Positions 24,120-57,677 of a stretch of DNA of 64,000 nt are shown here, in pieces. The notes beneath the pieces were generated by a model that saw nothing but the letters and a program-made list of their open reading frames with translations, searched no databases and was not told the origin of the DNA. Position numbers and translations under genes: made by a program. Positions within the stretch are counted from its first letter, which is position 1; every line of letters starts with the position of its first letter. The DNA comes from Enchytraeus crypticus. Its lineage: Eukaryota; Annelida; Clitellata; Enchytraeida; Enchytraeidae. Location of the stretch: contig CAJHZI010000206.1 in assembly GCA_905160935.1 (NCBI GenBank), positions 432,501 to 496,500 of the forward strand. The letters are read 5' to 3'.

Positions 24120-24200
24120 TTACTCGTCAGTGGGTGTGCGACAGTAGGGACAACGATTGTGCTGTAGAGCCAGCAGCTCATAATCGTCTTTATGAAAGAT
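24120..24200 (-). CDS. IFT122: IFT122 exon 28 and stop (residues 1167-1192)
   Basis: GTGTTCAG|ATCTTTC to [23 protein letters not shown] then RTPTDE; CPYC completes the site opened in exon 27. Confidence 0.96.
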
Positions 24201-27200
24201 CTGAACACATGACAAAACAAGTCCATTAATACCACTCCAGTTGTGTCCGCAACACTGGAGAGTAGACATACCGTTTACTGCGCGTATCGTAAAAGGCGAC
24301 TAGCGATAACTAGAGAAGGCAATGTGATACTATCTCAGAAGCCATAATTGTTCCTAATTAAAGGAAATTTTACCGTAAGCACATTTTGAAGGAACGTATT
24401 GTATTTTACGTAACACTTAAATATTGGTAAACGCTATCTGTCATAAACACACTAAATACAGGACGCTAAATGTTCACGAAGATAAAACTCATTGAGTAAT
24501 TACTACAAATAACAAGTACAACATTACATAGAGCGATATCAGTGATAGTAGAACAAAATCATTACAAAATACCATAGTGACAGGAACAATAAACGTAAAA
24601 ACGAAGAAATGGTCGGCAGAGGATGACATTCATTACTCATTAGGAGTCTAATGCAAATGGATGCAGATAACAGAAACAGAGATGATCAGAGCAACAATGG
24701 ACAGAGACATATGGAGGAACATGACCATGACCGCCTAGGCTTGGAACAGGCAGGACACTTGAAGATAAAGAAGAGTGATGGCAATGATAACAGTGATGAA
24801 AATGATAATAGTGATAACAATGATGATGATGATAACAATGATAACAGTGATGATAATGCTAACAATGATGATAATGCTAACAATGATAAAACAGTTATAA
24901 CAATGATGAAATTAATAACAATGATAAAACAGTTATAACAATGATGAAATTGATAACAATGATAAAACAGTTATAACAATGATGAAATTGATAACAATGA
25001 TAAAACAGTTATAACAATGATGAAATTGATAACAATGATAAAACAGTTATAACAATGATGAAAATGAGAACAATGGTAACAGTAATATAAGTGATAACAG
25101 TAAAGTGATTTTGAGAAATGTAAAAGACAACCTTATTGCAGGCGTTGCACTTAGCCATGGGCACGTCTAGCATGACAATCTTGTAGTACTGGTATCTGAG
25201 AGGCTTAGGCCACTGACATATCATCACCTCAGTGCGAGACATAGAGCGTAGTACATCTCTGTTACATACGATCTTCTTAAACTCTCCACTACTCTGTTTA
25301 CACAATACAGACAATAACACAGTGTTACTATCACTCAATATCTCTCTCTCTCTCCCTCCTGTTATCATTATCAATGTCATGTTCGTTGTCATTACCATCG
25401 TCATTATCATAGTCGTTATCATTCTCATTATCATTTATTATCATTGTCATTATCATTGTTATTATAATTGTCAATATCATTATCATCGTAAAAGCTGGTA
25501 AAGCTTATGTTAACGTCAGTTTCCTCACTCGAAAGCGATGTCAGTGACGGGCGAGCCCAGGATTTGAACCCAGCACATACTGATCCGCGGTCGAGTATCT
25601 TTACCGACTTCGCCACTGGTCCAGCCATTATCATCGTCATTATCAATGTCAATGTCTTGGTCTTACAAGAGTTTCTATATTATCATTATCAATGTTATTT
25701 ACATCCTCTCTACCATCGCCATTACCATCATCATTATCATTGCATTTATCATTGTCATTGCCATAATCACTGTCATTATCATTATCGTAGTCATTTTAAT
25801 TCATTGCTATTATCATTGCCATTATCATTTTTAGTATCATTAGTCAATTATTTGCCATTATCATCGTCATCAGGCCTACCATAGTCATTATAATTGTCAT
25901 TATAATTGTCATTATAATTGTCATTATAATTGTCATTATAATTGTCATTATAATTGTCATTATCATTGTCATTATCATTGTCATTATAATTGTCATTATA
26001 ATTGTCATTATAATTGTCATTATCATTGTCATTATCATTGTCATTATAATTGTCATTATCATTGTCATTATCATTGTCATTATCATTGTCATTATAATTG
26101 TCATTATAATTGTCATTATCATTGTCATTATCATTGTCATTATCATTGTCATTATCATTGTCATTATAATTGTCATTATAATTGTCATTATCATTGTCAT
26201 TATCATTGTCATTATCATTGTCATTATAATTGTCATTATAATTGTCATTATCATTGTCATTATAATTGTCATTATCATTGTCATTATCATTGTCATTATC
26301 ATTGTCATTATCATTGTCATTATCATTGTCATTATAATTGTCATTATCATTGTCATTATCATTACTATCGTCATTATCACTGTCAATGCCCTAGCTTTAC
26401 ATCAGTCTCCATATTTTAGAGAAATATTGAGCTCTCACCTCAAAGCTGACAAATCTAGTGTTGAACGGATCATGCTTAGAGTTCTGCTCGTCCAACATGG
26501 CCGCATACTCCTCCTCTATTTTCTGAGCGTCCCCAGTGACTGATGTCATCGTCAAGGTTCTTACCGTAGACATTAAACACATTATCTTGTTCTTTCATAT
26601 TGTCATTATCTTGTTCTTTCATATTGTCATTATCTTGTTCTTTCATATTGTCATTATCTTGGTTGTTGTCGACTTATTATTAATAATAAATATTAATAGT
26701 CTTATTATTTACTATTGTCATTGTCTTATGTTGTTCTTTATTTATTTATGAGACGAGTAGAGTTTTCTATTGACTGGAGCCAGTGGGGATGTCGGTAGAT
26801 AATCGACCGCGCATCAGTATGTGCGGGGTTCAAATCCTGGGCTCGCCCGTCACTGACATCGCTTTCGAGTGAGGAAACTGACTTTAACATTAGCTTTTTT
26901 GCTTTATATAATCATGTCTTATTTACATGTATACTTTGTGTTTATAAGATTTAGAGTAAGCTACTACCTCTCTCTCTCGTTCTTTTTTCTCTCTCTCTTT
27001 CTCTCACAACCATGGGCTGTTTACCATATGAGTATATACCATATAATATATATATTTACCATAATGTAAAAATTAGGTATTAATGCATAGTTACATCCTC
27101 AGATCGTTTTCATTGTCTTCCTCGTTATCTAAATTAGCATTAATAAGATAAAAAAAGATAAGTGTGATGATTTAGCAGAATATGATAGAAGAGGGAGGCC

Positions 27201-30200
27201 GGATCTATTATACCAGGAAGTCAGGATATTAACAAGAACCGACAAGGAGATGCAAAGAACATTAGTAATAATGGGTAAAGATGGGGAATTGAAGACAGAG
27301 CTGGAAGAAGTAAAAGAAAGATGGAGAGAATATGTAGAGGAATTGTATGATAAGGCTGGGAAACCAGTTCAAGAGATTTTTAATAGAAGAAGAAAATATC
27401 ATAGAAAACGATAAAAGAGGCCCCGATTTAATGAAGGAGGAAATTTATTCTGCAATTAAAAGTATGAAGAAGGGAGGCAGTCGGAATAGATGAAATCCCA
27501 GCAGATTCTTGATAATTTGAAGGAGAAACACTCATAAGTTAGTGGAGTTATGTATTGAAGTGTACAATACAGGTATTTGGCCAGACGACTTCACCTAGTC
27601 AGTGATGATCCCAATTCACAAAAAGCCAATGCTGTGGAGTGTTCGGATTACAGAACAATCAGCTTATACCTCATGCATCGAAGATTTTCTTAAAGATAGT
27701 AAATAATTGCATTCAGTCGAAAGCAGAGATGATACTTAGCAAGACACAATTTGGTTTTAGGAAAGGATGCGGCACAAGAGAAGCAATAGGAGTAATGCTG
27801 GTTCTTTGCGAAGAAGCTTAGAATATGGAAATGACGTTTTTGTATGCTTTGTAGACTTCGAGAAGGCCTTTGACAGGATTGATTGGATAACGATGATGAA
27901 TGTCTTAAAAAGATTAGGAATTGACTGGAGAGATAGAAGATTAATTTTGAACTTGTACATGAATCAAAGAGCAGTAATCAAAATCCAACAAGAATACTCA
28001 GAAGAAGGTGAAATAGGACGTGGAGTAAGACAAGGTTGTAGCATTTCGCCACTGCTGTTTAACATTTACGCTGAGGCAATGATGGAGGAAGCCATGGAAG
28101 ACTTGGAAGAAGGAATAAAGTAGGAGGGAATTTGTTACAAGATGTACGTTTTGCAGATGACCAAGGAATGGTAGCGGCAGCGAGATTGGATTGCAGAAGA
28201 TAATGGATAGGCTGAATGATACGGCCCTAAGATATGGCATGAAGATTAATATAAAAAAGACCAAGGTTATGAGAGTGTCCAATAATAAAGGTGAAGTTAA
28301 TATCACAATAAATGGTACGAACTTGGAACAGGTAAGGAGGTTCAAATATTTGGGTCATACTATAACAGATGACGGGAAATGTGAGACGGAAATATGCAGT
28401 AGGATTGCACAAGCAAAAGCGGCCTTTGGTAGTAGAAAAGAACTATTAACAAAAAGTCTAAAGAAAGACACAAAGATAAAGATAGCGAAAACTTTGATCT
28501 GGACCACGCTTTTGTATGGATGTGAAACATGGACCTTAAGGAAGGAAGATATTAGGAAACTGGAGGCATTGGAAATGTGGAGTTGGAGAAGAATGGAGAG
28601 GATTAGCTGGACTCAAAAGGTTACAAATGAGGAAGTTCTGGAGAGAGTTGGCACAGATAGACAATTGATAAATGTATTAAGAAATAGGAAGAAGAGATGG
28701 ATAGGACATATTCTAAGGGGAGAAGGTCTATTGAAAGAGATCATAGAAGGTAGAATGGAAGGAAAAAGAGGCAGGGGCAGGCCGAGATTAGGTATTTAGA
28801 TGATTTAAGGACCCACTTATATGTGGAAATGAAGAGGAAGGCGGAAGACAAAGAGTGGAGGCTTTATGTACCATGGACCTGCCAGTAGGCAGTGCACTAA
28901 GAGAGAGAAGATAAAAAATACTAGTAGCATAGATAAGATCAAAGGATACTAGTAGTATTGAGAAGATCAAAGGATACACTAGCATTGATAAGATCAAAGG
29001 ATACTAGTAGCATTGATAAGATCAAAGGATACTAGTAGCATTGATAAGATCAAAGTATGCTAGTAGCCTTGATAAGATCAAATGATATAAGATAAAAGGA
29101 TACTTGTAGCTTTAAATTCTCTCTTTTTCTCTCGCTGGTGTCTGCTGTTTGGAGGCTCTAGCTCGAGCAATGATATCGCCTCAGCATCAGTGATGTCAGG
29201 GTCTATGAAAAACTCTATCAGTGGCAACAGCTCTGCATAGTCAATTGAGCAATCAATCAATTAATCAGTCAATTGATCAATTGAGTAATCAATCAATCAA
29301 TTGATGAATCTATCATTCAATTAATCGATCGATCAATCAATTTATTATTCGATTGATCAGTTAATCAAGCAATTAATTCCTTATTTAATCTGATAATTAG
29401 CTACTTCAAATACAAATCCGGTATTCGGAATAAGCTTAGTTTAATGAAAGATAAGTATAACAAGTACTGAACAAATGTATTGAACAAATGTATTGAACAA
29501 ATGTATTGAACAAATGTATTGAACAAATGTATTGAACAAATGTATTGAACAAATGTATTGAACAAATGTATTGAACAAATGTATTGAACAAATGTATTGA
29601 ACAAATACATTGAATAAATGTACTGAACCAGTTTCCTGAACAAGTGTAGTTAAACTATAGTTAAATTATATATAACACTATAGCTAAACTGGAATTCAAG
29701 AAAATATGATGATGAAGATTGTGATAATGTTGACTATGATGATGGTGATGATGGTGACGATGACGAAGGTGATGATGGTAATGATGATGGTGATGATGAT
29801 ACAATTAAACAATTATAAGCTGGATCATAAACTCACCGAACGCTACGAAAGAGAAGACGAATGGTTGACGACAGTTGACGCAAGTGTTACCACTGCTGTT
29901 GAGAAGTGGGTTTGTAGTAGAGCAGCGGTAGCAGAGTGGTAACAGGTCCTGAACAATCATGATAAATCAATTAATGAAGAATCTATCAGGATCAATGACG
30001 ATTAGCATCAGCTTCTACACTGTAGCTCTTTACAGTTCAATACTATTTTCATTATTTATGTTTATTATCTCCAATTTGTCTACAAACTTATGTTGCTATG
30101 TTGTTTCCATGTTTCCGGTAGTCAGCTAGATAGAGCTCAATTTGGCTCTTTCTGACGGCCGTTTTATTTGTATTCTGTCTCGTTTGTATGCGCTTTGTGT

Positions 30201-33200
30201 ATATTTTGATTCAGTTACAAATAAAAGATCATGGTTCTCTCAAAGGCGATTTCAGGAATGTCTGAGTGGCGCACTAGCTAAAGTATACTATACAGGAATC
30301 ATTCAGGATTTAAATCCACAATGGAAGTAGGATAAGCCAATTAAATAAATAATAAATAATAAATAAAGGTTTAACGTTCGTTTCCTCATACAAGGATGAT
30401 GTCAGGGACGTCAGATCATTAGAGATCAAGCTATCAACTAAACTACAACAACTGATTGACTGACAGATATGAACAAAAACTTATCATTGAAAGCTAAACC
30501 CCTCAACCCATAATCACCTTATGACTGATTAATAATCATTATATAGTAGTTAAGTTGAATACCACGCGTCTGTAGAAGTTCTACTTCTAACTTCTACTTC
30601 AAATTAATTATCGACTGATAAATAAACACAAAATCACAGCAATATCGAAATTTAAAGTTGTAATATCTTATATAGTGCTTGCTCGCAACACTAAGATCAA
30701 AATCAAAGCATAATTTCTTTACTGGCTGGTTGACCAATAGTTTAATTGACTGATTGATGAATAGATCGATTAATTGATTGATAGATTAATTGATTGATCG
30801 AGTAATTGATTGATCGATTAATTGACTGATCGAGGAATCCAATGCTTGATTGATCGCAAATGGACTAATCGAAATTCGACTGCCTGATTAAGAAATCGAT
30901 TGATTGACTGATTGATTGATTGATTACCTCGGTATCATGGAAAGCCTTGCCCCTAATCATCACGGCGCCCATGTCAGCTGACTCCTGGTATCTAGCTGGC
31001 ACCCTCAGGGTCTCGAGCTTCTCGTAGGCGTGACGGGCGAGCTTGAGCGCCCCGAGTAGCTTGCTGTGCTTGGCCAGGGTGTAGAGAGTCGCCCTGTGGC
31101 GTTAAATTAGGTCAGGTTAAGAAAATATGGGACAGGTTAAGAAAAGATAGGTCAGGTTAAGAAAAAATGGGTCAGGTTAAGAAAATATAGATCAGGTTAA
31201 GAAAATAGTGGTGAGGTTAAGAAAAGATAGGTGAGGTTAAGAAAAAACAGGTGAGGTTAAGAAAAAATAGGTCAGGTTAAGAAAAAATGGGTCAGGCTAA
31301 GAAAAAATAGGTCAGGTTAAGAAAAATGGGTCAGGTTAAGAAAAGATGGATCAGGTTAAGAAAAGATGGGTCAAGTTAAGAAAGGATGGGTCAGGTTAAG
31401 AAAAATGGGTCAGGTTAAGAAAAAATGGGTCAGGTTAAGAAAATATGGGTCAGGTTAAGAAAAGATACGTCAGATTAAGAAAAGATAGGTTAGGTTAAGA
31501 AAAGTGAGATAAGTGCAAGTAAAGACTATAACAGCAGCAACAACTAGTGTGCAACTGTAAATGTTTTGAGAAAGCAGATATTAAAACTTGATTAATCAAT
31601 ACAGAGCAATCAATTAACCTGTTAATTAAAGAGAGAAACAATATAAAAGCTATCCAATCAATTTTTCACTCAATTAAACAATCACACACTAAGTTAACAA
31701 ATTCATCAATTAATCAATCAATCAACTATAACAATCACTCGAACCGTAAGCAAATGAACAACTCCAATATTAAAGAATCAGTCAATCAATCGATCAATCA
31801 GTAAGTCAGTCATTCAGTCAATCAATCAACCAATCAATCAATCAATAAATCAGTCATTCAGTCATTCAGTCAATCAATCGATCAATCAGTAAGTCATTCA
31901 TTCAGTCAATCAATCAACCAATCAATCAATCAATATATCAGTCATTCAGTCAATCAATCGATCAATCAGTAAGTCAGTCATTCAGTCAATCAATCAACCA
32001 ATCAATCAATCAATAAATCAGTCATTCAGTCATTCAGTTAATCAATCGATCAATCAGTAAGTCAGTCATTCAGTCAATCAATCAATCAATCAATCAAATT
32101 CTGTAGTAAGCACAACGGATACACTTTGGAGATTCCAGCTGGAGGATCGTTGATGGTCAGTAGACAGTGCCAGAGATATCGAGATATGTTGAATAGAGTC
32201 TCAGGCTGTAGCGAAGTGAATGGTTCTTCCTGGTTACATAAAAATGTATTGTTTTAACAGAATGTATTGTTTTTTGTCAATATCAACAATGACAGAATTT
32301 ATGAACTTAGTGCATCGAGGTGAATGGCTCATATTGGTTACGTAAAATTCATTAGAATTATGCATAGATAATACAATCAATATAAATTGAAATTCTTATT
32401 ATTATTATTAATTATTAATAATATCAATAATAATGTAAAATAATTATAAATTTACTATAGCTAGCTGAATGAATATTCCTGGTTAGTAATATATTCAATA
32501 TAAAGAATTTGTAAACATATTTAGACGTTTTACTAAAAACTACATAACAACAAAGCGGGAGCGGGTTTAATGCACTGGTTTAGAGCAGGCTGGAGCCAAT
32601 AAAGCAAGTTAAGCAACGTCGGTCCAGGTTTAAACTAGTTCTATCAAATTTGAACAAACACTTGAGGGTATTGAAAGTTTACCCTTAATCTAATTAACCC
32701 ACTGACAGCAATGCACTGCATAACAACAATTAATGGCAACAGATGGTAATAATCGTGAAAGTAATGAAATTTAAAAAGAAAACGAACACAAATTTGAACA
32801 GACCGTAAACCGTTGTATGAAGTGATAGGCATAGTACATCTCGGCTCGTCTCTGAAATTCCTGGAACTTCTTCAACATGCTGTCACGTGACGTGTTGTTC
32901 TCGTCTGTCACAAGACAACAACAACATTTAACACGCTGTCACGTGACGTGTTGTTCTCGTCTGTCACAAGACAACAACATTTAACACGCTGTCACGTGAC
33001 GTGTTGTTCTCGTCTGTCACAAGACAACAACAACCTTAAACACGCTATCACGTGACGTGTTGTTCTCGTCTGTCACAAGACAACAACAACATTTAACACG
33101 CTGTCATTTGATGTGCTGTTCTCGTCTGTCACAAGACAACAACAACATTTAACACGCTGTCACAAGACGACAACAACATTTAACAAGCTGTCACAAGACA

Positions 33201-36200
33201 ACAACAACATTTAACACGCTGTCACAAGACAACAACAACATTTAACACGCTGTCACGTGATGTAATTATATATACATGTGTATATATAACTAAGATACTC
33301 TCTACTCAATTTACTATTTCATTAATCAACTAGGGCTCAACTAAATTCTTCTAAAAGAGAGATACGGATGGAGTCGCTAAAAATAAATAAAATACAGATA
33401 AAGATATTAGAAATATAAACATATAGAAACAGAAATACAGAAATATAGAAATAGAAATATAGAAATAGAAATATAGGAATAGAAACATAGAAATAGAAAT
33501 ATAGAGATATAGGAATAGAAATACAGAAATATAGAAATAGAAACATAGAAAGAGAAAATTTCTATTGCTATGTTTCTATGTTTCTATTCCTATATTTCTA
33601 TATTTATATTTCTATATTTCAATTTATATATTTCTGTAATATAGAAATATAGAAATAGAAATATAGAAATATAGAAATAGAAATATAGAAATATAGAAAT
33701 AAAACTATAGAAATATAGAAATATAAAAATAGAAATATAGAAATAGAAATATAGAAATAGAAAAATATAGAAATAGAAAAATAGAAATAAAAATATAGAA
33801 ATAAGGAAACAGATATATAGAAATATAGAAATAGAAATATAGAAATAGAGAAATATAAATATAGAAATAGAGAAATACAAATATAGAAATAAAAATATAA
33901 AAATAGAAATATAGAAATATAAGAAAGAAATAGAAATATAGAAATATAAATATAGAAATATAGAAATATGGAAATAGAAATATCGATATTTAGAAATATA
34001 GAAATATAAAATATAAAAATAGAAATATAGAAATAAATAATAAAGGTTTAACGTCCATTTCCTCATCCAGGGATGATGTCAGGGACGTCCCCAACAGCAC
34101 ACACCACTACAGATCAATTCACCCAGACCAATCTGCGAAGAAAGAAATGTGCTGAGGAGAAGTAAGGTCCTAAACGAAAGCCAGTCCGGTGATCAAAAAA
34201 TGGTCAAGGTAGATTGATTATGTCTATGGTGGGAAAAGGTAAGTTTTAAGCTTGCTAGAGAATGTTGAAAGAGAAGAACAAGAGTGAAGATTAGCAGGTA
34301 AAGAATTCCAGATTGTTGGTGCTGCGTAAGAAAATGAACGTCTGCCCAATATAGAAATAGAAATATAAATAGAAATATAGAAATAGAAATATATAAATAT
34401 GTAAATAGAAAAATATATAAATATATCAATGTTATCTAGAAGGAAGAGAACCTGCCGCCAGGTCGAGGCACTGTATGGAGAGTTTCCAGTAGTAGTACCC
34501 GGCGTCATCAAACCTGTTCTCTGTCACCGCGTTGTGGGTCAACTGCTCCAGTACCTTTACCGCCTCCCTCTCTAACCCCGCCCTGTGGAACGCTGTACGA
34601 CACCGCACACCATCTTTCTCTCGTTTAGTATCGTTTATTTGTTTATCATAGCACAGATTTGTACCAGAAATAATGGTATATCAAGACAAAAGACCCACTC
34701 ATATGTGGAAATGAAGAGGAAGGCGGAAGATAGAGAAGAGTGGAGGCGTTATATACCATGGACATGCCAGTAGGCAGTGCACTAAGAGAGAGAGAGAGAG
34801 CACAGACTTAAAATAGATGGCTGGAGCCAGTGGCGAAGTCGGTAAGATACTCAACCGCGGATCAGTAGGTGCGGGGTTCAAATCCTGGGCTCGCCGTCAC
34901 TGACATCGCTTTCGAGTGAGGAAACTGACGTTAACCTTAGCGTTGCCAGATTATACAAACAATAGGAACGTGCATGTAGTTAGATAAACAAATAATACAA
35001 AAGAGGCTACCGTAAAAGAGCCGTAGCTCTGCTCGGTAATGCTATAATTAGTAGCTATAGCAGAGTCTAATTGAGTCTGAAACACTTAAAAAATTCTATA
35101 ACAATACCAATTACCGTAAAACCGTTGGTAGCCATACAATTCAATATGTTCAAATTAGGAAATGGCGAGACACTGGCAAGTGAAAACTCAAATTAAACCA
35201 CTGCAGAGAGCGCCAACAGAGTCAATGCTTTCAATGTAAATTTATCTAACTATGTTTCCGATATTTACCTTCTTTAATGGGCAGTAATTAATTTGTACGG
35301 TTGCCACAGATTCTACAGTATTCTGTAGCATAGAAGACATTAGTAAACGTATTTGTTATTCTTAATAGCTGCTACTGACTGTATTACCTCACAGAGTTTA
35401 GGCTATTTTGAGGTAACCTTCTTCCTGATGATTTCTTTAGTTTCAAGTAAAGTACGCTGTATTTGTCGTTTATTATTTTAGACCTATTTTCTCTCGTTGA
35501 TTCAATGTATACTTGTATTTATATATGCATGTTCGTAGAGTGTGGGGCATATACAATCATTAATATTATGCAATACATGTATACTATACTACCATAATAA
35601 TTTTATTGTTGTATTAATAATAGTAATATTGATGGCCTAGATGCTTAACGTAAGTTTTTAAGTGCTTAATAAGAAAACAGTTGTATCAGTTTGAGGCTCA
35701 TGTTTATGTTTTCTGGCCTTTGAGTCCCATTTTACTTTTCTTCATGTAGAATAGTGAACACTACCTATTGTGTATAATTGAGAGCTAGTTGAAGCATCAA
35801 ATTCAATTCAATGAATTATTACATAAAATTCCACTAGGACCCAAATTAACGTCAGAAAGGGCATACGGTTAGTGAGCGCCTAAGCTCCAGAAATTAGTAT
35901 AAAATTTTCTTATCCATACCCTGGTTAAACTGGGATTCAAGGGAAGATGATGATGATGATGATGATGATGATGATAATAATGATGACAATGATGATGACG
36001 ATGATGAGGATGATGATGATGATGATGACAATGGTGATGGTGATGACGATGATGATGATAATGGTGATGATGATGATGATAATGATGATGACGATGATGA
36101 TGATGATGATAATAATGATGATGATGATAATAATGATGATGATGATAATAATGATGATGATGATGATAATGATGCTGAAGATGATGATGATAATAATGAT

Positions 36201-36550
36201 GATGATGATGATCATGATGCTGATGATGATGATGATCATGATGATGATGATGACGATGATGATGATAATGGTGATGATGATGATGATGATAATGGTGATG
36301 ATGATGATGATGATGTTGATGATAATGATGATGATGATGATAATGCTGGTGATGTTGATGCTGATACTCCTACCTTGCTGCGCCTCTTCAAACTTGTCGT
36401 TCTCTGCCAGGAACTGAGCGTACGGCAGATAGACGTCTACCTTGTATTCAGGATATTTCTTAGCCAACGCAAAAGCCTAAAATATTTTAATGGAGGCAAC
36501 AAATGTCAAGAAATCACTAGAAATGTCTACGACAACCCACCACCATAATT

Positions 36551-37130: not shown

Positions 37131-39591
37131 GGTTTAACGTCCGTTTCCTCATCCAGGGATGATGTCAGGGACGTCGCCAACAGCACACATCACTACAGAT
37201 CAATTCACCCAGACCAATCTGCGAAAGAAATGTGCTGAGGTCCTAAACAAAAGCCAGTCCAGTGACCAAAAAATGGTCAAGGCAGATTGATTATGTCTAT
37301 GGTGGGAAAAGGTAAGTTAAGTAAAAGAAGGGCCTCACCTCCTCCCAGTACTTGGCCTCGACGTGCAGCAGGACGAGGGCTCGTAGGTCCCCCAGCTTCT
37401 CGTAGACCTCGGAGGCATAGGCGTACTGCTCCAGCCTGCACAGGTACTCGGCGCTCTTACGTAGCGGCTCCTCGTCCGCCTTGTCCAGTCTACGAGCTAG
37501 CTCTATCAACCTATCAATCAAACACAGCCAGCTCTATCAACCTGTCAGTCAAACATAGTCAGCTCTATTAGCCTGTCAATCAAACAGAGCCAGTTCTATC
37601 AACCTGTCATCAAACAGTGTCAGCTCTATCAACCTGTCAATCAAACAGAGTCAGCTCTATCAACCTGTCAATCCAACATGGTTGCTATATCAACCTGCCA
37701 TCAAACAGAGTTAGCTCTATCAACCTGTCATCAAACAGAGTTAGCTCTATCAACCGTTCAATCAAACAGAGTTAGCTCTATCAACCGTTCAATCAAACAG
37801 AGTTAGCTCTATCAACCTGTCAATCCAACATGGTTGCTATATCAACCTGCCATCAAACAGAGTTAGCTCTATCAACCTGTCATCAAACAGAGTTAGCTCT
37901 ATCAACCGTTCAATCAAACAGAGTTAGCTCTATCAACCGTTCAATCAAACAGAGTTAGCTCTATCAACCGTTAAATCAAACAGAGTTAGCTCTATCAACC
38001 GTTCAATCAAACAGAGTCAGCTCTATCAACCTGTCAATCAAACAGAGCCAGCTCTATCAACCTGTCATCAAAACACACTCAGCTCTATCAACCTGTCAAT
38101 CAAACAGAGTCAGCTCTATCAACCGTTCAATCAAACAGAGTTAGCTCTATCAACCTGTCAATCAAACAGAGTCAGCTCTATCAACCGTTCAATCAAACAG
38201 AGTCAGCTAAGGAGTAACTCACATGTCCGCCCAGCCATGTTCACCGATGATGCAGACAGCCTTCGTGAACTCTCCGGCTGTGATGTACATCTCTGCGGCT
38301 GTCTTGGGCTCGTTCAGGTTACTGGCCCAGTCAGCCTGCTTAGTCATCAGCATCTTCTTCTCTTTAATATCCTCCGCTCCTACGAACTCCTGCCGTAATC
38401 AATCAATCAATCAATCAATCGATCGATGCATGATTGAAACAATCAATCAATCGATCAATGAATGATTAAAATAATCAATCAATCGATCGATGCATGATGA
38501 AACAATCAACCAATCAACCAATCAATCAATCACATAATCAATGAGTCAATCAATCGTTCAATCAGTCAGTCAATTACGGTCTAAATAAATTGGCTAATGA
38601 TCGGTAGTAAATTCGTTAATAATCTTCTTTTATATCTTTTGTTCACGAGCAGTCCTGTAATAATGTCACTAAATACATAAAAAAACCAGCAATGCATGCA
38701 ATCCTGCAATATCTAATCAAACGTAGATGTATAGAGCGAAACAACCCATGATTGCCAAACAAGCAAAATAGGCCACATAATAAAATAGCCACAAAATGAA
38801 TATAACTCAGGCTACGAAATAAAAAGCTGCCACAAGAAGCCAGATTTTTATAACAGTCCATACACCATTCTCTTTCATTCATGGAAACTGTAGGTTTTTT
38901 TTAGGTTCAAGGTACATGTTCATACTCAAAGTCTGCTTTCTCGCTCCATAAGAGCACTCCGTAGATCAATAAGTTAATCCCTTCACAAAGTCTATGCCTT
39001 ATCTATACCTTATGTAGCCTATAGCTTTGGAAAAGTATGGCTTCTGAGATGGTTTCCCATTGCCTTCCTCAGTTAGATACATTAATAGGCTACCATTTAA
39101 TCCTGAGGGAAAATATTTCATGGTGAGGTGGGTCCCCTCTTACCATCCTCAGCACCTGCCTTAGTCGCCTCTTACGTACACGCAGCAGATTGTTTGCGGT
39201 TTCCCTATTCTACATTGGTTCATCAACCACACCCGAGCACAACACGGGGGTATATATATACCATAAATTTGAATATATACCAAGGACCTGCCACATGACA
39301 GAACACTAAAGAGAGAACGAGATAATGATAATGTAAGCAGTTCACAGTTAACCTTGGCGAGATCAAACATCCTGAGGTCAGTGTACATGTTGAGAGCCTT
39401 AGAGGGGTAACCACTCGTCTTGTACATCCGTGCAGCCTCAGAGAACTTACCCTCGTGAGCGTAGATGTCTGCTAGAAACACGTTCATGTTGCTCTCCCCG
39501 TGTCTACGTCTCTCCTACGTACAGCAGAGAGGCGATTAATCGTCGTCGTCGTCATCGTCGTCATCATCATCATCGTCACCATCATCGTCAC

Positions 39592-39631
<40 letters not shown>

Positions 39632-41615
39632 GTCATCATCATCATCATCATCTTACCTTGAGTCCCAGTTTAGCTACGGTCAAGATTAGATTAGATTGGA
39701 TTAGATAAGATTGGATTAGATTAGATTGGATTAAATTAGATTACATTGGATATGATTAGATTGGATTAGATTAGATTGGATTATATTAGATTGGATTAGA
39801 TTAGAGTGGAGTGGATTACGGTCGGGATTTGGGTTGGGATGTAATTGAGCACAAAACAATAATAAATGACCTCCGACAACTTCTACAGCAGTGTCATGGC
39901 CGGTGAGCGGTTTTCGAGACTGCTTTACAGGTTCCTAACACGCTATTATTAACCCTTCCTGGGGTTAAACATATTCTGATAGCGCCAATTGGCAGCAAGT
40001 ACCGATACAAGATTAACCTTCCATGGGCATATGGGGATATCCATCTTTTGTTGACTGACGTGGGCCATGAACACAGGTCACTTGTATCCAAGGCGAACAC
40101 TCTAACCTTTACCTTCTCACATAGCTGCACAATGCCTAACAGCGCACCATGATGAAATAGATTTGGTAGCGATAAAAGAAATTTGATGGCAGAGTTGACA
40201 GATATGCTCGCTCAATAAACCTAGGACTAATGATTCGAATCCCAGATGAACCAAGCCCAATCATCCAGGACAGATGATATGGAAACAGCCGTTAAAGTTA
40301 GTTCTCAATTCTTATTCAGATTTTAACATACTGACAGATCTATAAAATAAACATCTCTAAAAATAAACATCTCTAAAAATAAACATCTCTAAAAATAAAC
40401 ATCTCTAAAAATAAACATCTCTAAAAATAAACATCTCTAAAAATAAACATCTCTAAAAATAAACATCTCTAAAAATAAACATCTCTAAAAATAAACATCT
40501 CTAAAAATAAATTTCTCTTGCGGTCTCTGTGTACTCAGTCGTCATCGTGTGGTGTTTTGGCGCCTGTTTTTGTATAGGCTGCAAGAGACATTCCTGACAT
40601 TGCCTTATGGCGAGGAACCGGACGTTTAATTTTTATTGATTGATCGATTCATATCAGAGATAAGATAAAGAAAACAGATTATAATAATTAACCAACCGAA
40701 ATGTTTATTAAATAATAGAACTCACTATACAGGTTTGAATTTTACTAATATCCTTTAGAACTATCTACCAAAAATTAGGCTTACAATATTGTGTTGAACC
40801 GGTGGCTTGTTGGCATGTTGATCGACATTGGATCATTAGGTACAAGGTTCAAATCCAGTGCTTTTCCTGCCACCGACATGTTATCAAGCCGGAAACTGAC
40901 GCTATACTTGGCTTAGCCTTCAGGTATCTGATTTTGATATAGATGAAGAAGGCAACAGGAAACCACCTCAGAAGCCATACTTTTCCCAAGGTATAGGCTA
41001 CATAAGGTATGGATAAGGCATAAACTTTGTGAAGGGATTAACTTGTTGATCTAAGGAGTGCTCTCATTGAGCGAGAAAACAGACTTTAGTATGAATATGT
41101 CAATCGAACCTACCACTTGGCAGTGCACTGAAGAAGAAGAAAATACAGATGAAGTGATCGAGATATTTGACTTGAATACTAATGAACTGAGATATCTACA
41201 GAATGAGTACCTCTATATCATAGATGAGATTAAGATATCTATAAAATAAACAACTCTATATCATAGATGAGATTAAGATATCTATAAAATAAACACCTCT
41301 ATATCATAGATGAGATTAAGATATCTATAAAATAAACAACTCTATATCATAGATGAGATTAAGATATCTATAAAATAAACACCTCTATATCGGAGATGAG
41401 ATTAAGATATCTGATGTCCCTTGTTCTCCTGAAAGCCTTGCTCGCTGTCGTCAACTCCAGCGACTGTAGAGCCTCGTGAGCCAAGTGATCCCAATCCCCA
41501 CTGGTTACCCCTAGACTAGCAACACTGTACGCCTCACTACACAACAACAACAACAACAAGTGATCCCAGTCCCCACTGGTTACCCCTAGAATAGCAACAC
41601 TGTAAGCCTCACTAC

Positions 41616-41648
<33 letters not shown>

Positions 41649-44166
41649 GCAACAAATGATCCCAGTCACCACTGGTTACCCCTAGTAGCAACAACAACAA
41701 CATCAACAAGTGATCCCTACATTATTGTTCAAAATATTATCTTAGAATTCAACATACTTGAAAGATTTCTTCTCGAGATACTGGTACATAGATGCAGACT
41801 GTGGTACAGAAATGGTAGTGATGGCATAGCCATTCAAACAGTAAATGTTAGAACCGTTGAAGGCCACGACAAATCCCTGAACATAAATAACACATAAAAA
41901 AATTGTATCATACTTCCATCACTCGTAAATATACTCTTATCATTCGTGTCACTCTTATCATACTCTTATCACTCGTATCATACTCTTATCACTTGTAGCA
42001 TACTCCTTATCATACTCTTATCACTCGTATCATACTCTTATCACTTGTATCATACTCTTATCACTTGTATCATACTCCTTATCATACTCTTATCATACGT
42101 ATCATACTCTTATCACTCGTATCATACTCTTATCACTCTTATCATACTCTTACCACTCTTATCATACTATTATCACTCGTATCATACTCTTATCACTTGT
42201 ATCATACTCTTATCACTCGTATCATACTCATACCACTCGTATCATACTTTTATCACTTGTATCATACTCTTATCACTCGTATCATAAATTTAGTTATTGA
42301 GCGTCTAATTCGCGATTCAAAGGTGCTCGGTTCAAATCTCGTAACTCATGGTCTACTGCATGATGCAGAAACTGTACAGTCAAATTTTGATACTAAATAT
42401 AAAAGGTAGCTGAAAGCTCTTAATCTAAATCTTGCATAGTCTTCGAATTTGACTAGACATAGCAGAATCCTCCAAGAATAATGGTATATCAGAAGGAATG
42501 TTATAAATAATTTAAAGATTCACTCGTATGTGGACATAGTGCACTAAGAGAGAGAGAGTCTTTGAAAATATCTAATTAAACAATGTACAGTACACAAGCC
42601 GTTTAGTGATCCCCTAAAACTACGTTGTAAACAATAATCATAATGACAACAATTAGAGTGCTACTGTCGTCGATGACAGCAACGAGCACTACTGAGACAA
42701 ATACAAGCCGGTGTGCAAAAAGAAGTTCCAAAACGGTGCAAATTCAAAAATTCAAAAACCCACTCGAAAGATACAAATAAACAACTATAGAACGCTGATT
42801 AAGATATAAAACACGTTTAGGAGAACGACTAACCTGCACTTTCTGTTGATGCACAGGGAAATTGGCGACCTTGATGTTAAGCATGCCCACACCACTGAAG
42901 CAGAGCATATCATCATGCTGGGTGTTCCACGCTACGCTCGTGGCATTCGGCTCCTGGTCCAAACATATGAGTAAAATAATTAATAATATTTAATAATAGC
43001 ATTAGTAATTTAACTATAAAGTAGACGGCAAGAGAACATCGGGAAGACCTAAAAGAAGATGGAAGGACTGCCTCGAAGAAGACTTGAAGGCTGCTGGAGT
43101 TAGCAGTTACGGAAGAACAGAAGGAAGAAAAAGAATGAACATTGTGAAAATGGCAAAGAATAGAGTTTTGTGGAGGAACATCATAGAGAAATCATTGGCT
43201 GGAACCAGCCCCAGGATGATCACATGACATGACATCAGTAATCATCAGCAACATCGTAAACTTAATCCCAGTTAATCATTAAAACCAACCCTAGTCAAAA
43301 TAATGACTATGGTTTATTCCATAACAGGAGCTTAAATCACAATCAATCAGTTTGATTGGTCAATCAGCACATTTCTGATCTGCCGTTGGTTGAACGCGAA
43401 TATTTACAAGGATACCAAATTGAAATTAAATTAATGATCACACCGAATGTAACCGAATGTAACCATAAGTTAACAATATCCATCGTTCATAGCTTAACAA
43501 TAACCAATCAATCAACATAATCAATCTACATAATTTAACAAAAAATCAATCAACATAAGAAGGTTCATTAGTTAGCAACAACCATCAACACGGTTCACAA
43601 CTTAACAACAATCAATCAACACGGTTCATAAGTTAACAACAACCAATCAACACGATTCACCAGTTAACAACAACCAATCAACACGATTCACCAGTTAACA
43701 ACAACCAATCAACACGGTTCATAAGTTAACAACAACCAATCAACACGATTCACCAGTTAACAACAACCAATCAACACGATTCACCAGTTAACAACAACCA
43801 ATCAACACGATTCATAAGTTAACAACAACCAATCAACACGGTTCACAACTTAACAACAATCAATCAACAAAGCTCATAAGTTAACAACAACCAATCAACA
43901 AGGTTCACAACTTAACAACAATCAATCAGTCGACACACAGAGTCCACCAAAGTTATTTATTTATTTAAAATTTCGATTTTGCATAGCAAATACACAAAGC
44001 AATGTAAATAATTGAATAGTAGCACATAATTGCAAAATAAAGGTTAACCCAAGGCACTAGGCACTTATAGGGACCCATATAAAGACAATATATAATATAT
44101 ATATATATATATATTTATATATCTACTTATATATCCTATATTATATATATTATTTATGTATATGTA

Positions 44167-44212: not shown

Positions 44213-47200
44213 ATATATATATATATATTCATACATACATACATATACACTAATATACATATGTATATACTCATATACATACACATACATACATATACAC
44301 AGAATAAATACATATATACATAGGTATAGACCTGGAAGAGCAGTTCCTTGGTTTTGATGCTGTACACGAGGCAGGTGTTGTGATCATCTACGACTGCCAG
44401 CTTGCTACGAGACGCGTTGATGTCCAGACATCTCATGCTGCTGTTCAGCTTCAACATCTGCACTGGGAACGGGTTGTCTATGAATATCTGCAGGACCTGA
44501 CAGTTGAAAGAGCACACAGGGTTAATGAGCTGAGCTACCAATAGTAGGATGTAATTATCGCAGTTTATGTTTGTAAAACACACTTCATTTAAACATACAT
44601 TAGCTCAAATATAATATATTACCTATGCGTCTGTTGCTAAGTGAGTTATGTAGGTAGGAGACTACAGAAAATTGCATAAAAAGCTAAAGCTAGGGTTAAC
44701 GTTAGTTTCCTCACTCAAAAGCGATGTCAGTGACAGACGAGCCTAGGATTTGAACCCCGCACATACTGATCCGCGATCAAGTATCTTATCGACGTCGCCA
44801 CTGACTCCAGCCAAGTTGCGACTGGCTCCACCATCGTATCGTAGTTGAAGTGTGTAAAGCACACTTCAACTATACATACATACGCTCATATATAATATAT
44901 AAGCTCTGCGTCTGTGTCAAGTGAGCTATTTAGGTAAGAGACTATAAAAAAATACATACAACCATTTAAAGTCAATTTTTGAACGAGGCCCCTCGACCTA
45001 CCTGACCGTTCTTTAGCCCCACGAGCAGGCCCTCACGTCCTGGTAGACCCCCCGTCACCCGCACGTATCGAACGGGCGACTCCACCACCCACTCTCTCTC
45101 CTTCACACCCTTAAAGTTGAGACACTGTACTCTGCGCTCCTGCACTCAGAGAAAACTATTATATAATTATACCAATTATTATATAATTATACTAATTAAT
45201 ATATAATTATACTAATTATTATATAATTATACTAATTATTATATAATTATACTAATTATTATATAATTATACCAATTATTATAGAATTATACTAATTATT
45301 ATATAATTATACTAATTAATATATAATTATACTAATTAATATATTAGTCAATTCTCTATTAAATCCAGAATTAGTAATCAATATTAACTGGTACTCTTAG
45401 TTGCTGCAACGTGTATTATCTCACACTGCTTTGCCTCTTTTGTCGTTACCCAATTCTTCTTGATTACTTATTTATTTTGCTAGTTAAGCGTGTTTGTATA
45501 TAATGTTATTGTGACAATATAAATACCATTGAAGATTAAAAAACAACAATTCAAAATGTCCAATAGTAATGTTTAGCGCTTAATAGAGTAGCCTATTTTT
45601 TTTTTTTTTTATCTACTGTTATCAAATTACAAACCAAAAATTACATAGTATGTAATTCAAAACACATTACAAAGCAAAAATATCATGCCTTAACTTAGCG
45701 AAGATATCATACAAACCTGATTTTATAGGAGCATAATTACGATTTTTAATGCTATTGACGCAATAAACTCTAATCAAATTAAAAAACATGAGCGAGATTT
45801 TCCAAATATAGCATAATAAAGTATCGCACGGTTTTGTACCGCATTATGATTAACAAATTTGAGAATAGTCAACTGTAAACAGAGGTTGTTTGAAAAATTA
45901 ATCAATCAATAAGAATTTAACGTCCGGTTCGTCGTCATAAGGCAATGTCAGGGACGTCTCTTGCAGACTCTACACAAACAGGCGTCAAAGCACCAAACGA
46001 TGACGACTGAGTACACAGAGACCACAAAAGAAAGCGAGATTAAAACAGTGCAAGTCCAAGATCCAAGGAAAGCGGGTCAACATTTAGACCTATGGCGGAA
46101 AGAGATGGGTCTTAGCTTGCCAAGGAAATACCAATACAATTACAAGACCGAATATCTTGTGGCAGAGAGTTCCATATTGTCGGAGCAGAAAACATGAAGG
46201 AGCGTCTGCCCATGCAAGATATAATGTTTGGTACAGTGAGAAGGTTTTTACTAGAGGAACGAAGACTACGAGAGGGTTGATAGATGGATAAAAGATCAGA
46301 TAGATAGGATGGTTTACCATAATTTAAACTTTTGAAGGTCAAGGAAGTTATCTTGAATTTTATTCGTTCGGAGACGGGAAGCCAGTGCAGTTTCTTAAGA
46401 AGAGAAGAGGTGTGAGAATTGAGCATTTTTACATTGCAGACGACTCAAGAAAGAGAATTTTGTACATGTTTGAGACAAATTGGAGAGGTCTTCGGGAGAT
46501 CATTCAGTAGAGCGCTACAGTAATCTAGTTTAGAATGGACAAGCGCATTAGCTAATACAGTGGCGGAATTAAAATCAAGGCGGACCAATATAAAGCCGAC
46601 CAAAGCAGAAAATGAAGAAGGCAGGCACATGAAGCTACCTTCTGAGCCAAAAATCAGCAAAGTTAGGCCTAAAATTTGATGAGAAAAAGCTAACTTACCA
46701 GAAGGGATAGGCTTAAAGATTGTTGGATGAGGGAATGCACATTAAGGGGCGAAGAGGATAAACAGACAAACCAGACAGACAATGAGGTAATTGGAGGAGA
46801 ATAAAACAGACAAACGAGACATACAATGGGATGGTTGGACGATTATAAAGAAGACAAACCAGTCAGATAATGAGATGATTGGAAGAGAATAAAGCAGATA
46901 AACCAGTCAGACAATGAGATGATTGGAGGAGAATAAAGCAGACAAACCAGTCAGATAATGAGATGATTGGAAGAGAATAAAGCAGACAAACCAGTCAGAT
47001 AATGAGATGATTGGAAGAGAATAAAGCAGATAAACCAGTCAGACAATGAGATGATTGGAGGAGAATAAAGCAGACAAACCAGCCAGACAATGATATGATT
47101 GGAAGAGTATAAAGCAGACAAACCAGACAGACAATGAGATGGTTGGAGCAGAGTACAAGTAGATCACATTCAATCTTAGCGGTGAACTTGTCTCTCACAC

Positions 47201-50200
47201 GATACTGCATGTCAGTGGCATCATCAGCTGTCAGCTGATACACCACCACTCTCTCGCTCAGCTGTATCTAAATACAACGAAAAGCAATACGATGCACAAT
47301 ACAATACAATGCAATATGAATACAATACCCTGACTTACAATACAATGCAATACCCTGACATACAATACAATGCATGTCAGTGGCGTCATCAGCTGTTAAC
47401 TGATACACCACAACTCTCTCGCTCAACTGTATCCAAATACAACGTAAAGCAATACGATGCAATACAATATGCAATATGAATATCATATACTGATATGGTA
47501 CAATTATGTCTGTGGCGTACTATGATGGCGCCATTTAAATAAAATCCAAATAATATGATGTCAACTCATTCGCTACCATTCTCTAACTCAACTTCATCTA
47601 AATGCAATACAAAAAAATACAATGCAATAGTATAATACAGAATAATAAAACATGATACAATATACTCTAATGCAAAACTACATATTATAGGGTCATATGT
47701 TTTAATTCATACATTATAAATCTCTTGCTGAACAACAATACACTGGAACTGGAATGCAATATCATACAATACAACAGAGCCAAATACAAAAAAATATATA
47801 TAATTCAGTACATATAATATAATATAACGAATCATAATTTAAAAAATAGTCGAATATAGTAGTTTTCACAAAACATGCCTATCAATTAGCCTAATGCAGT
47901 AGTGTTCACAAAACATGCCTATCAATTAGCCTACTAGAGTAGTGTTCACAAAACGTGCCTATCAATTAGCCTAATATATTAGTGTTCACAAAACATGCCT
48001 ATCAATTAGCCTACTAGAGTAGTGTTCACAAAATATGCCTATCAATTAGCCTACTACAGTAGTGTTCACAAAACATGCCTATCAATTAGCCTACTAGAGT
48101 AGTGTTCATAAAACATGCCTATCAATTAGCCTAATGCAGTAGTGTTCACAAGTCGTGCCTATCAGTTAGCCTACTAGAGTAGTGTTCACAAACATGCCTA
48201 TCAATTAGCCTACTAGATTAGTGTGCATAAAATATGCCTATCAATTAGCCTAATATAGTAGTGTTCACAAAAGGTGCCTATGAATTCTTGTGAATCTGAA
48301 AAGCATTGAGACACTGCTGAGAGTAAAGACTTACAGCGAGTACATGCTTGTATGTGGCCACTCTCTTCACCAGATCTCTGCATCTGATACGAACTGCGGA
48401 TAACAATATACACGCAGCTGTTAGAAATAGCATCATGCAAGGGTAGAATTAGTATATTCGTATGTATTTACAAAACTTAACAATTACAATCTTAAAGAAC
48501 CATTCAGTTAAATCAAAGCATACCCAATTCATTAATGGTGCTAGTTATTAACTAACATTTATTATTTCTCATTAATTAGTTATCATTTAAAACTAAAGCC
48601 TACGAGTTAGAAAAATGATGTTTAACCTATACAATCTAATTAATTGAATTTCGGAGATAAGATCACAAGTAAACACTAACTGCACCTGTTTTCAATGATT
48701 CAGAGATTCGTATAACGCCAAGCACCGCTTGTAGTATTTTAACTTGTCTGCCACCATATGTCAACTCTCAGTTCATTAAACAGCTAGTCAGCGAAATAGA
48801 ATGAACAGCTTGATCGCCAAAATAAATAATTGAGTAAAATAAATAACAGATTAATTTGGAGGAAGGGCTAAGTGTACTTGGCAACCGGTCCGGATTTAAG
48901 AATAATCTTCCAACACCCTCGGAATTTTTTCATTCTAGGCTGTCAACACTCGGTTTTCCAAGGTGGTTACCCACAATGTACTAACTGGGCGTGACGTAGC
49001 TTAGCTTTGTTCAGAAAAACCGAGTGCGGTAAATCCCTCCCCTCTAAATTTGATGATTGCAGTGAAATAACTTCATAAAGTCTCTGGCATCGTCATTGGA
49101 TTATAAAAGAACATAAAACCTTGTAAAGTATAAACATATTTCAATGCAGCGGAATGTTAGAAATCTGTTGATAACTCACACTACGATGTAAGATGAAACT
49201 GCACTGTTATAGAAAGTAGGAGACCTTTTTGATCAGTAATGAGATGCTGTATGACCACATCAGTCATGTTATCCCTGTAGGCGTATCGATCCTTATGAAG
49301 TCCGTGTATAACACTGAACGTCAGCTGATTGTATGAGATTAAACCATCTTCAGTCCCATAGGCCTGTCATACATTGATCATAGATTAACTGATATACCAT
49401 GGCCTGTCATACATTGATCATAGATTAACTGATCATACAATGGCCTGTCATACATTGATCATAGATTAACTGATATACAATGACCTGTCATACATTGATC
49501 ATAGATTAACTGATATACAATGACCTGTCATACATTGTTCATAGATTAACTGATATACAATGGCCTGTCATACATTGATCATAAATTAACTGATATACAA
49601 TGGCCTGTCATACATTGATAATAGATTAACTGATATACAATGACCTGTCATGCATTGATCATAGATTAACTGATATACAATGACCTGTCATGCATTGATC
49701 ATAGATTAACTGATATACAATGATCTGTCATACATTGATCATAGATTAACTGATATACAATGACCTGTCATACATTGATCATAGATTAACTGATATACAA
49801 TGGCCTGTCATACATTGTTCATAGATTAACTGATATACAATGACCTGTCATGCATTGATCATAGATTAACTGATATACAATGGCCTGTCATACATTGCTC
49901 ATAGATTAACTGATATACAATGGCCTGTCATACATTGATCATAGATTAGCTGATATACAATGGTCTGTCATACATTGTTCATAGATTAACTGATACACAA
50001 TTGCCTGTCATACATTGCTCATAGATTACTTGATATGCAATGGCCTGTCATACATTGTTCATAGATTAACTGATGTGCAACGGGATACCACAGAGTTTTA
50101 CGTGCTTTAGCATTGTATGAGTCATTCAGGAGATGCCATTGGAACTATAGGATTGAACCTTCTGTAGACCTCTCTTAATTTCAATAAAGAGTTCACTTGT

Positions 50201-51230
50201 TATTCTTTAATCTTAGCTATTAATGCAGCAAGAGCACTACAATAAAACTATGCAATAAATTAAAATTTCAAAAGGAGGAAATTAGAAATATTAGCAAAGT
50301 TACTTTTGTAAATTAGTGCGTTCTGTCATATATGGAATAATAGAACGAGTCTCAAATCTCAAATGTTTGGGAATCACAATTTTGTGTAATTTTTCCTTTT
50401 CTACTCATATATCCAATCTTATATCCTCATGTTCGAGTAATATTTTTGCTTTATACTCCTTGCGCACAAAAGGTCTATCAAATGAACTACTTCAGATAGT
50501 GTTCCAGTCTTCTACTCTTAGTAAATTATTCTATGCCTCACAATTTAGGTGGGGGTTTACTTCTGCTGACGACAGAAACCGCCTAGAAGCATTTTTAAGA
50601 CGAGCAAAAAGGGCTGGTTTTTATAACAAAGAGCAAACTTTTGAGAATCTCTGCATGTCAGCTGACAGTAAGCTATTTAGGTCAGTCTGTAATAATTCTG
50701 ACCACTTGCTGGCTCCATTTATGCCCTCACTAAACCAACATTCATATCAAACCCAAAGAAATGTTGCAAAAAGAACTTACGCCATACCAACAAAGCGTAG
50801 CTCTTTGAATGATAAAAACTTCATAACCCGCATGTCATTAAGTGATGCTATAAAACTATAGCTAATTTAATCTTGGTTTATGCAAGATTAAATTAAAATG
50901 CATTGTTACTATTTAGCGTGACTGTGTCATTATCTTCTCGTATAATGTATGTTCGAATGAAACCTCTCTGCGGTTGTTAGATTGTTTTAAATAACGCAAG
51001 ATTTTGTTATTATATTTTAAGTTAAGTGGGAGGGTTCATCCATTTTAAATATCATTTAAACGCACTCCCTTCGTGGTTAAGAATTTATCATTAGAATATC
51101 GTATAATGACCGTTATGAAACATTATCTTGGACTATTGTTGTCTTGGTATTATTGAACTTTCTATTTACTTTTTGTTCCATGTATGTTTGTACGTTTTCT
51201 GCGGTATGTCAGACTTCAAGTAATAAACGA

Positions 51231-51274
<44 letters not shown>

Positions 51275-54000: not shown

Positions 54001-54083
<83 letters not shown>

Positions 54084-57000
54084 ACATACTGAAAGAATAC
54101 CAATGCGAAATGTATGCTCCATGCATCGAAAGTCAATTGATTAGATTGTATCATACTGAAATAATAAAATTAAAAATATTTCTTTCCATGCATCAGCAGA
54201 TTATATAATAAAGGACAATGAAAGTGACACACTTGTTAGGACACCACTCTAGAGTCCATACTGGAGCCGAGTCCCTCTCTATCTTCACTTTCTCTTCCCC
54301 AGTCTGTCAATTCAGTCAAATGACAGCAATATAGCTTACCAAGTAATTGACAGATAAACATCAATCAATCAATCAATCAATAAGAATTTAACGTCCGGTT
54401 CCTCACCATAAGGCAATATCAGGGACGATATCAAGTAGCAAAGCACTTAATTATTTCTAAGTCACAGAAAATTAATTGTTTTTTGTGTAAGTATTTACAC
54501 ATGTGACATAAAACACATGCTACTGAGATTTCATGCTTAGCTTTTTGTTTGCTGTAATTTTCTTTATTTCCTTCTTCCTCTCATGGTCATTAGTAATCAT
54601 TGCCCTTTGAAAATACATTAATTGCAGCCGATGTGCGTATATATTAATACGGACGCAGACCACAGTACCTTCTAGCCCTGAGCTAGATAAACGAAGTAAT
54701 ATGTGTTACTGTATTGCATTGTATAGTATTAATTACCTTTGTATGAATGTCGATAACAGCACTGATTTAGACAAAACAACAGATACTGTATTATACTGTA
54801 TTATTGCACTGTTGCATATCATGCTGCAATGTTCTGCATTACATTGCATTGTACCATTATACCAGTGTTCAATACTGTATTATATTGTATTGTAGCATAT
54901 AGTATTGTACTTTACAAATTAAATTACATTACACCGTTACATTGCACCTGTCATATTAAATTACACTGTACTGTTAAACCTTGGTACGTATGCTGATAAC
55001 ACCATTGATAAGACCCAGAGTTAGATACTGTATTGTACCATTATACCTTGGTACGTATGCTGATAACGCCGTTGATTAGACCCAGCGCAAGATACTGTCC
55101 ATCGTTAGTCCACGAGCAGCTTGTAATGCGAGCATTTATCTTGTGCTTGTCAACCGCCTTCACATCCTTCGACCAGAATCCTGAGATATTAAATAAAACA
55201 CTTCAAGTTAAAAAGCAAAAGCTGGTAAAGCTAAGGTTGACGTCAATTTCCTCACTCGAAAGCGATGTCAGTGACGGGCGAGCCCAGGATTTGAACCCCA
55301 TCACCATCATCACCCTCATTACTCATCATTATCATCATCATCTTCCTTGAATCTCAAGAGAAGATGATATAGTCAAATATATCAAGGCACTAACTAGGGT
55401 CAGGATTAGAAAAGTTTGTTATAATTTCTGGAACCTGTGCGATCACCTAACGAATGCACTTTCTGATGTTAGTTTGAATCTTTGTGTTCTGTCACTTTTT
55501 ATTACAAGTGCAGTCAATGTTTTGTGTTTTTATTTATTTAACACATGTGAATATTTATGTACACACAGTACAATACAGCTTAAATTCTTGTTTTATAAAC
55601 AAATTGTCTATATTAATAAGTTCAATTTAAAATTATTATAATCCTTCGTTACACTGGTTCAGGAATTGCCATGTGTTAATGTCATATATTACTTTCCTGA
55701 CATTGCCTTATGGCAAGGAACCGGACGTTAAACTCTTATTGATTGATTGATCGATTGATATTTAGTAAGTCCAATACAAATTAAAAGGAGTTCAATACAA
55801 GTCATACCAAAATCAGATGTGGCGCAAGAGACGAGAGGTTCCCCTAGAGGATTGAACGCAAGACACTGTATTGCCTCATTGTGGCTGCAGGGAAAAATCA
55901 AAAATCAAATTAACAAATATATAAAATAAAAAATAAAAAAGCTAAAAATATGCAAAATAGAATTCACAGATTAGCTATAAAATAAAAATTAGATTAAACA
56001 TGTTGTGGCTGCAGGGAAGCAAAAATATGCAAAATAAAATTCACAGACTTGAACAGAGAGACAGAAAGAGAGAGAGAGAGAACTATGTTTATTGAAGTAC
56101 ACATACAAGTATACATACAAACACAAAGTCATCAACGAGGGTATATATACCCAACCTAGTTGACAGCCAGCAATCACGCAAGAACAGGCAAACAATAGTA
56201 ATACAATAATATTGAATAGGAATATGACAGAACAAAAGTAGCAGTCCAGGAAAACTACTGTACAATATTCAAATATGTAGGATTCGTAAATGATGATTAT
56301 AATTACGATTAACAGTCTGGTTAGAGTTATAAAATTAGTAAAAATCACCATTGCTATAGCAAACAAAAGCCTAACAAAACAGGAAATTACTTTTAAAGTG
56401 CATTTGTCAGAAATTGATTAACGAGCATTCAAATAAATTCAATTAAAGTTAAGTAAAATATACTATGTATATTGATTTTCTTATAGAGCAATTCTTCTTT
56501 TAGTTCAATTAATATATGTGTTTAGAATAAAATAGAGAATATAAGAGAATGCTCTAACATGTATCAATAGAGCATATAATCAATCAATCAATCAATCAAT
56601 AAGAATTTAACGTCCGGTTCCTCGCCATAAGGCAATGTCAGGGACGTCTCTAAGAGAACGAAATCACTTTAAAACATTTAACAACATAAAGATCACATAT
56701 TGTCCAATGAAATTCCAAAAGTAATGATACAGCAAAGCAATAAAATAAATCAACAAGAACTAAATTGAAAATGTAAAAATAAATAAATAAATAAAAAATA
56801 ACCGAGAGAATAGATCTTACACATATCTTAATATTCCTTCAAGTTTATCGCTCCATATGATCACAGTTTTGTCGGCCGATCCTGATGCAAATTTCTTTCC
56901 ATCCGAAGCAAATGCCACGCAATAGACGCTGTCCTTATGACCTTTTAGCGCTTGAAGCAACGTTCCCTCAGCAGTCTCATAGATGGCAACCTTGTGACCA

Positions 57001-57677: not shown

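Follow-up and report, generated by a model that had tools for sequence, protein, structure and literature searches.

The analysed window, a 64,000-nucleotide stretch of the Enchytraeus crypticus genome with a GC content of about 35%, contains the IFT122 gene on the minus strand, from 57677 to 24123. The gene model, obtained by splice-aware alignment to human IFT122 and curated by hand, comprises 28 exons with a frame that is open without an internal stop, and its exon numbering is the same as in the first-pass annotation of this DNA. A provisional version, which still contained frame errors, was about 60% identical to human IFT122 over 890 residues, and IFT122 chains from the PDB match pieces of the gene. 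On the plus strand, an ALG12-like mannosyltransferase gene with nine exons lies at approximately 13130-22958; 229 of 465 residues are identical to the human protein. Within IFT122 intron 25, open frames that resemble a non-LTR reverse transcriptase (LINE; named by eye) were found in antisense orientation (27133-28796, plus strand). When the window and six loci were searched with Rfam, the sole match was to a tRNA (12232-12304, minus strand, 34.4 bits). The assembly consists of 802 contigs with 524,188,772 bases. One of them (C802) is the 15,205 bp mitochondrion, which carries cox1-cox2-cox3-nad6-cob-atp6-nad5-nad4-nad1-nad2 on a single strand, with genes named from translated frames, in the usual annelid order. 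The genome publication gives 525.2 Mb, 35.41% GC and 39% repeats, and a mitochondrion of 15,205 bp with the gene order of Lumbricus (PMC8460440).

When all 54 internal IFT122 exon edges were analyzed by an ungapped off-diagonal scan, Tandem Repeats Finder and a print-out of the copies, nine edges in seven exons were found to recur within the adjacent intron, all on the minus strand. The exon 4 donor is contained in two 67 bp units with 52 coding bases (54967..55098), whereas the exon 8 acceptor array (49361..50074, 40 bp × 17.8) includes only three. Exon 10 is copied at both ends: the acceptor is present in two copies 165 bp apart with 71 coding bases (47197..47475), which is not a Tandem Repeats Finder row, and the donor forms an array of nine 44 bp units with 24-32 coding bases (46751..47155). 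Likewise, the exon 15 acceptor occurs in two 75 bp units with 55 coding bases plus a degenerate third copy upstream (41482..41634), and the exon 15 donor in 5.2 units of 43 bp with 30 coding bases (41190..41412). The exon 18 acceptor array consists of 23 units of 31 bp with 17 coding bases (37494..38208). At the exon 21 acceptor (32874..33256) the array is nested; it is built of 56 bp units with 31-34 coding bases, and those farther from the exon have lost part of the exon-derived segment, giving rise to an inner 31 bp sub-array. The exon 25 donor array (28918..29113, six 28 bp units) is a weak match with approximately 7-10 coding bases. Further weak edge matches at the acceptors of exons 22 (score 21), 3 (score 19) and 11 (score 10) were not counted.

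Exons 4, 8, 10, 15, 18, 21 and 25 had already been named in the first-pass annotation as having ends copied into adjacent introns, exons 10 and 15 at both ends, and the three methods together confirm this. The coding part, given there as 9 to 60 bases, in fact ranges from 3 to 71 bases, and the listed units of 28, 31, 40, 43, 44 and 56 bp are all present, but those of 67, 75 and 165 bp had been omitted. Separate units occur at separate edges, in line with the earlier view that the arrays are independent events, and the copy adjoining the exon body is the coding one in an intact IFT122 frame, as had been considered there. Introner-like mobile introns are introns with repeated sequence in which the same sequence is found in many unrelated introns. 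In contrast, the units described here are private to each edge, and the seven edge-touching IFT122 arrays had no dispersed match and a masked fraction of 0.0 against an approximately 325 kb sample of this genome. Other arrays on the minus strand lie close to an exon of IFT122 without including its edge, e.g. 40 bp × 10.8 at 47858..48286, 48 bp from the exon 9 donor, 20 bp × 19.9 at 31110..31504, 16 bp from the exon 23 acceptor, and 20 bp × 9.4 at 45157..45344, 17 bp from the exon 11 acceptor.

For the placement test, each array was collapsed to one unit, and the units were placed randomly in the collapsed introns, edge spanning being permitted. A null comparing total array coverage with edge overlap was dropped, since an array that has expanded takes up many points of the intron and its seed only one. 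In IFT122, 24 of 31 arrays were located within 100 bp of an edge compared with 8.9 expected, a value reached in none of 5,000 simulations, and seven were away from edges. Six arrays extended at least five bases to either side of an edge (expectation 1.75, P 0.005); this count is based on Tandem Repeats Finder rows, so that the acceptor of exon 8, the acceptor pair of exon 10 and the donor of exon 25 are not part of it. After removal of detected dispersed repeats, 25 of 28 arrays were near an edge (10.9 expected) and six spanned one (2.0 expected, P 0.01). All P values given here and below assume independent births, and the complex exon 21 array enters as two rows.

The analysis was extended to nine modelled genes with 164 edges, i.e. 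IFT122, CCT5, ALG12 and six WD40 loci. CCT5, located with Pfam, showed arrays across four of its seven acceptors, with 47, 12, 47 and 79 coding bases copied and edge-array units of 48 to 109 bp; the fifth of its five arrays lies 5 bp from an acceptor. Three of the four ALG12 arrays were within 100 bp of an exon edge and none spanned one. For the WD40 genes, seven proteins were run against 20 loci, and the six loci with at least 55% identity were modelled; L024 and L016 (47% identity) were excluded. Doubtful end exons were dropped (1-2 in LIS1b, 1 and 11 in WDR5, and 1, 10 and 11 in KATNB1). No array was found in the modelled RACK1 gene, and two of six LIS1a arrays were away from edges. The two LIS1 (PAFAH1B1) paralogues, L013 and L021, are 71% and 72% identical to the human protein, and L021 has fewer arrays than L013 in the modelled span (2 vs 6). 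A broader WD40 sample of 54 matches with 107 predicted edges contained 16 edges with an ungapped match score of at least 20 (10 acceptors, 6 donors), and 30 of its 125 arrays were near the 95 better-scored edges, whose 100 bp flanks make up 4.75% of the bases; since its edges are predicted, this sample serves as support only.

In the course of the gene searches, a chaperonin-family match at C373:1699388-1700899 was found to be a single open frame of 554 codons that covers approximately the whole domain, whereas CCT genes are intron-rich. Two further places, C259:219813-222410 and C400:245545-248142, share an identical pair of chaperonin matches with equal E-values and frame length (894 codons), perhaps reflecting a recent duplicate. 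Dispersed repeats were very abundant, some stretches having up to 46 matches within the approximately 325 kb sampled (loci L009-L034 and the window).

Across the nine genes, 48 of 58 arrays were within 100 bp of an exon edge, compared with 19.2 expected and a maximum of 35 in 5,000 simulation runs; the 100 bp limit was picked after inspection of the distance profile, to which the loci of six of the nine genes had contributed. With a 50 bp limit, 38 of 58 arrays were near (12.7 expected). The effect is not confined to IFT122, without which 24 of 27 arrays were near (10.2 expected), and leaving out CCT5 as well gave 19 of 22 (8.5 expected). Nearness to exons thus recurs in the array-bearing genes examined, and the non-random placement asserted in the first-pass annotation is borne out. 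The nearest edge was an acceptor for 27 near arrays and a donor for 21, and these similar numbers argue against the polypyrimidine tract or the branch site as sole cause. Coverage by collapsed units amounted to approximately 8-17% in the roughly 100 bp flank, compared with 2-4% at 200-500 bp (IFT122 and predicted WD40 edges). The array-rich zone is therefore a stretch of roughly 100 bp on the intron side of both acceptors and donors, where arrays occur at approximately 2.5 times the expected frequency, and this result is robust. The GC content was 0.50-0.52 in exons, 0.33-0.36 in introns and 0.31-0.36 in flanks. As the flanks hardly differ in GC from the remaining intron whereas exons are GC-richer, the border of an exon may act through a step in base composition, the edge of a nucleosome or an effect of transcription.

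Our preferred explanation, to which we assign a probability of roughly 60%, is that in this genome tandem duplications of local sequence originate, or are retained, mostly in intron sequence no farther than about 100 bp from an exon, by a mutational process, and that the copies are neutral. A tandem duplication would occur in this flank on either the donor or the acceptor side, and a unit long enough to touch the exon would carry along the splice site and some coding bases. Tolerance of such a duplication would come from the copy beside the exon body, which still yields the same exon, whereas the remaining copies would turn intronic, drift, and expand or contract as a minisatellite. The underlying events could be slippage or microhomology repair, and the zone may be set by the base-composition step, nucleosomes or transcription.

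Alternatively, a property of the splice junction itself might favour duplications that contain it, so that exon edges seed the arrays, as the first-pass annotation had it. Edge-containing arrays do exceed the uniform null, not only in IFT122 as described above but also in the nine genes, where 12 arrays (8 at acceptors, 4 at donors) spanned an edge compared with 5.1 expected (P 0.002), and in CCT5 four of five arrays span an acceptor. With detected dispersed repeats removed, 12 were still seen (6.0 expected, P 0.008). Thus, the claim that arrays contain edges more often than by chance holds for uniform placement. It does not hold once nearness is given, since nearness and unit length alone predict 12.1 spanning arrays, and 12 were seen. 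Moreover, the excess over the uniform null fades without IFT122 (6 vs 3.3 expected, P 0.09) and is absent without IFT122 and CCT5 (2 vs 2.7 expected, P 0.79). In IFT122, ALG12 and CCT5, the 10 arrays that span an edge are all made of units of at least 25 bp, whereas the 19 arrays with shorter units include no spanning case, and of the 30 arrays that do not span an edge 21 are nevertheless near one. Long units near exons reach into the exon, and hence no seeding role of the splice junction is required; the copying of exon ends follows from the longer units within the flank zone. We therefore regard seeding by the edge itself as unlikely.

Somewhat less probable still is an age bias, according to which births are even, but deep intron is mostly younger transposon DNA and arrays survive near exons, where insertions are selected against, with constrained exon copies remaining recognisable for longer. 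The share of masked bases in IFT122 is 6% within 0-50 bp and climbs to 25-32% at distances above 100 bp, as such a bias would predict, and repeats are put at 39% of the genome (PMC8460440). However, the excess persisted in the nine genes after detected dispersed repeats had been removed (47 of 53 arrays near, 23.5 expected, maximum 37 in 10,000 simulations); masking was by self-comparison of approximately 325 kb of one genome, and with about 21% of the window masked against the published 39% (PMC8460440) this removal is incomplete. Constraint also cannot explain the arrays without coding bases, of which 21 of 30 are near. An assembly artefact, in which exon ends were wrongly assembled into arrays, appears very improbable. 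According to PMC8460440, the published assembly is a MaSuRCA hybrid of noisy long and short reads, and copy numbers may be wrong, but copies inside the edge arrays agree by approximately 86-96%, each with separate substitutions and indels, instead of being identical repeats, and the same pattern is present on several contigs. That the copies are retained because they serve as spare or regulatory splice sites is equally hard to credit, even though the splice-like sites are numerous. At 13 edges of IFT122 and CCT5, 66 copies retain AG or GT; scored with splice-site matrices derived from three genes (42 acceptors, 42 donors), 36 of them come up to the lower quartile of real sites, and 33 equal or exceed the score of their own real site. 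The edge arrays can accordingly be described, as before, as banks of splice-like sites predicted from sequence. Only one of 58 IFT122 decoys, at the exon 15 acceptor (window 41482-41706), offers an in-frame extension free of stops, a 25-codon repeat of the exon's own start, which could possibly give an extended isoform. Against a function stand this single case, the unit lengths, which in 10 of 13 instances are not multiples of three, and the arrays without splice sites, which show equal nearness.

Arrays of this kind are known from amphioxus as 'mirages', minisatellite-like tandem duplications that contain an exon-intron boundary; they are described for Adh3, troponin C and the globins BflGb6 and BflGb9 as well as PGBD5, the latter added to the mirage genes in PMC3902484, where troponin C is cited, and normal splicing is reported to be undisturbed (PMC3087553, PMC3902484). 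The potworm arrays resemble mirages in having a tandem unit with a real splice site and coding bases in IFT122 and CCT5 (only three coding bases at the exon 8 acceptor), in affecting both donor and acceptor boundaries (four and eight spanning arrays, respectively, in the nine genes), in units that vary by locus (28 to 165 bp for IFT122 and 48 to 109 bp for CCT5), and in providing extra AG and GT sites. They differ in that the host is an annelid, outside the reported cephalochordate range of mirages, and in that the edge copies belong to a more general surplus of exon-near arrays, many of which lack an edge; the accessible parts of the two mirage reports make no mention of such a surplus. The potworm side of this comparison is known from the sequence of one assembly, in which the IFT122 frame is intact. 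In the CC-licensed PubMed Central literature, no annelid report of 'mirages' was found, and among the matches listed the term was used only in PMC3087553 and PMC3902484; the potworm arrays thus represent a known kind in a new phylum. Likewise, nothing was found in this literature on a preference of minisatellites for the flanks of exons, and the accessible parts of two tandem repeat papers (PMC4039745, PMC3152781) held nothing bearing on exon edges.

The earthworm metallothionein loci also combine an annelid host with minisatellites inside an intron, and carry exon 4 duplications that are absent from the transcript; they concern one gene family, and the accessible parts of the report describe neither edge-containing arrays nor a placement bias (PMC12783039). 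In the model of Rogers, as cited in PMC3087553, introns are gained when sequence containing AG/GT is duplicated in tandem. The arrays share with it the local tandem duplication that copies splice signals, but in that model a new intron is made inside an exon, whereas the arrays add length to the ends of introns that already exist.

More tentatively, and at slightly below even odds, exon flanks may be a genome-wide hot zone of tandem duplication in this annelid, with the mirage process having arisen independently (or having been kept) in annelids and amphioxus; introns would then be built outward from their ends, and the splice sites supplied would occasionally become exon extensions or new introns. 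As E. crypticus is a laboratory animal for which a long-read genome has been published and transcriptome data are public (PMC8460440), birth rate, polymorphism and decoy use are directly testable. A pattern reported from amphioxus is also present in a distant phylum and, if exon borders are a hot zone of tandem duplication, the growth of introns, cryptic splice sites and some of the changes in exons would share a measurable local source.
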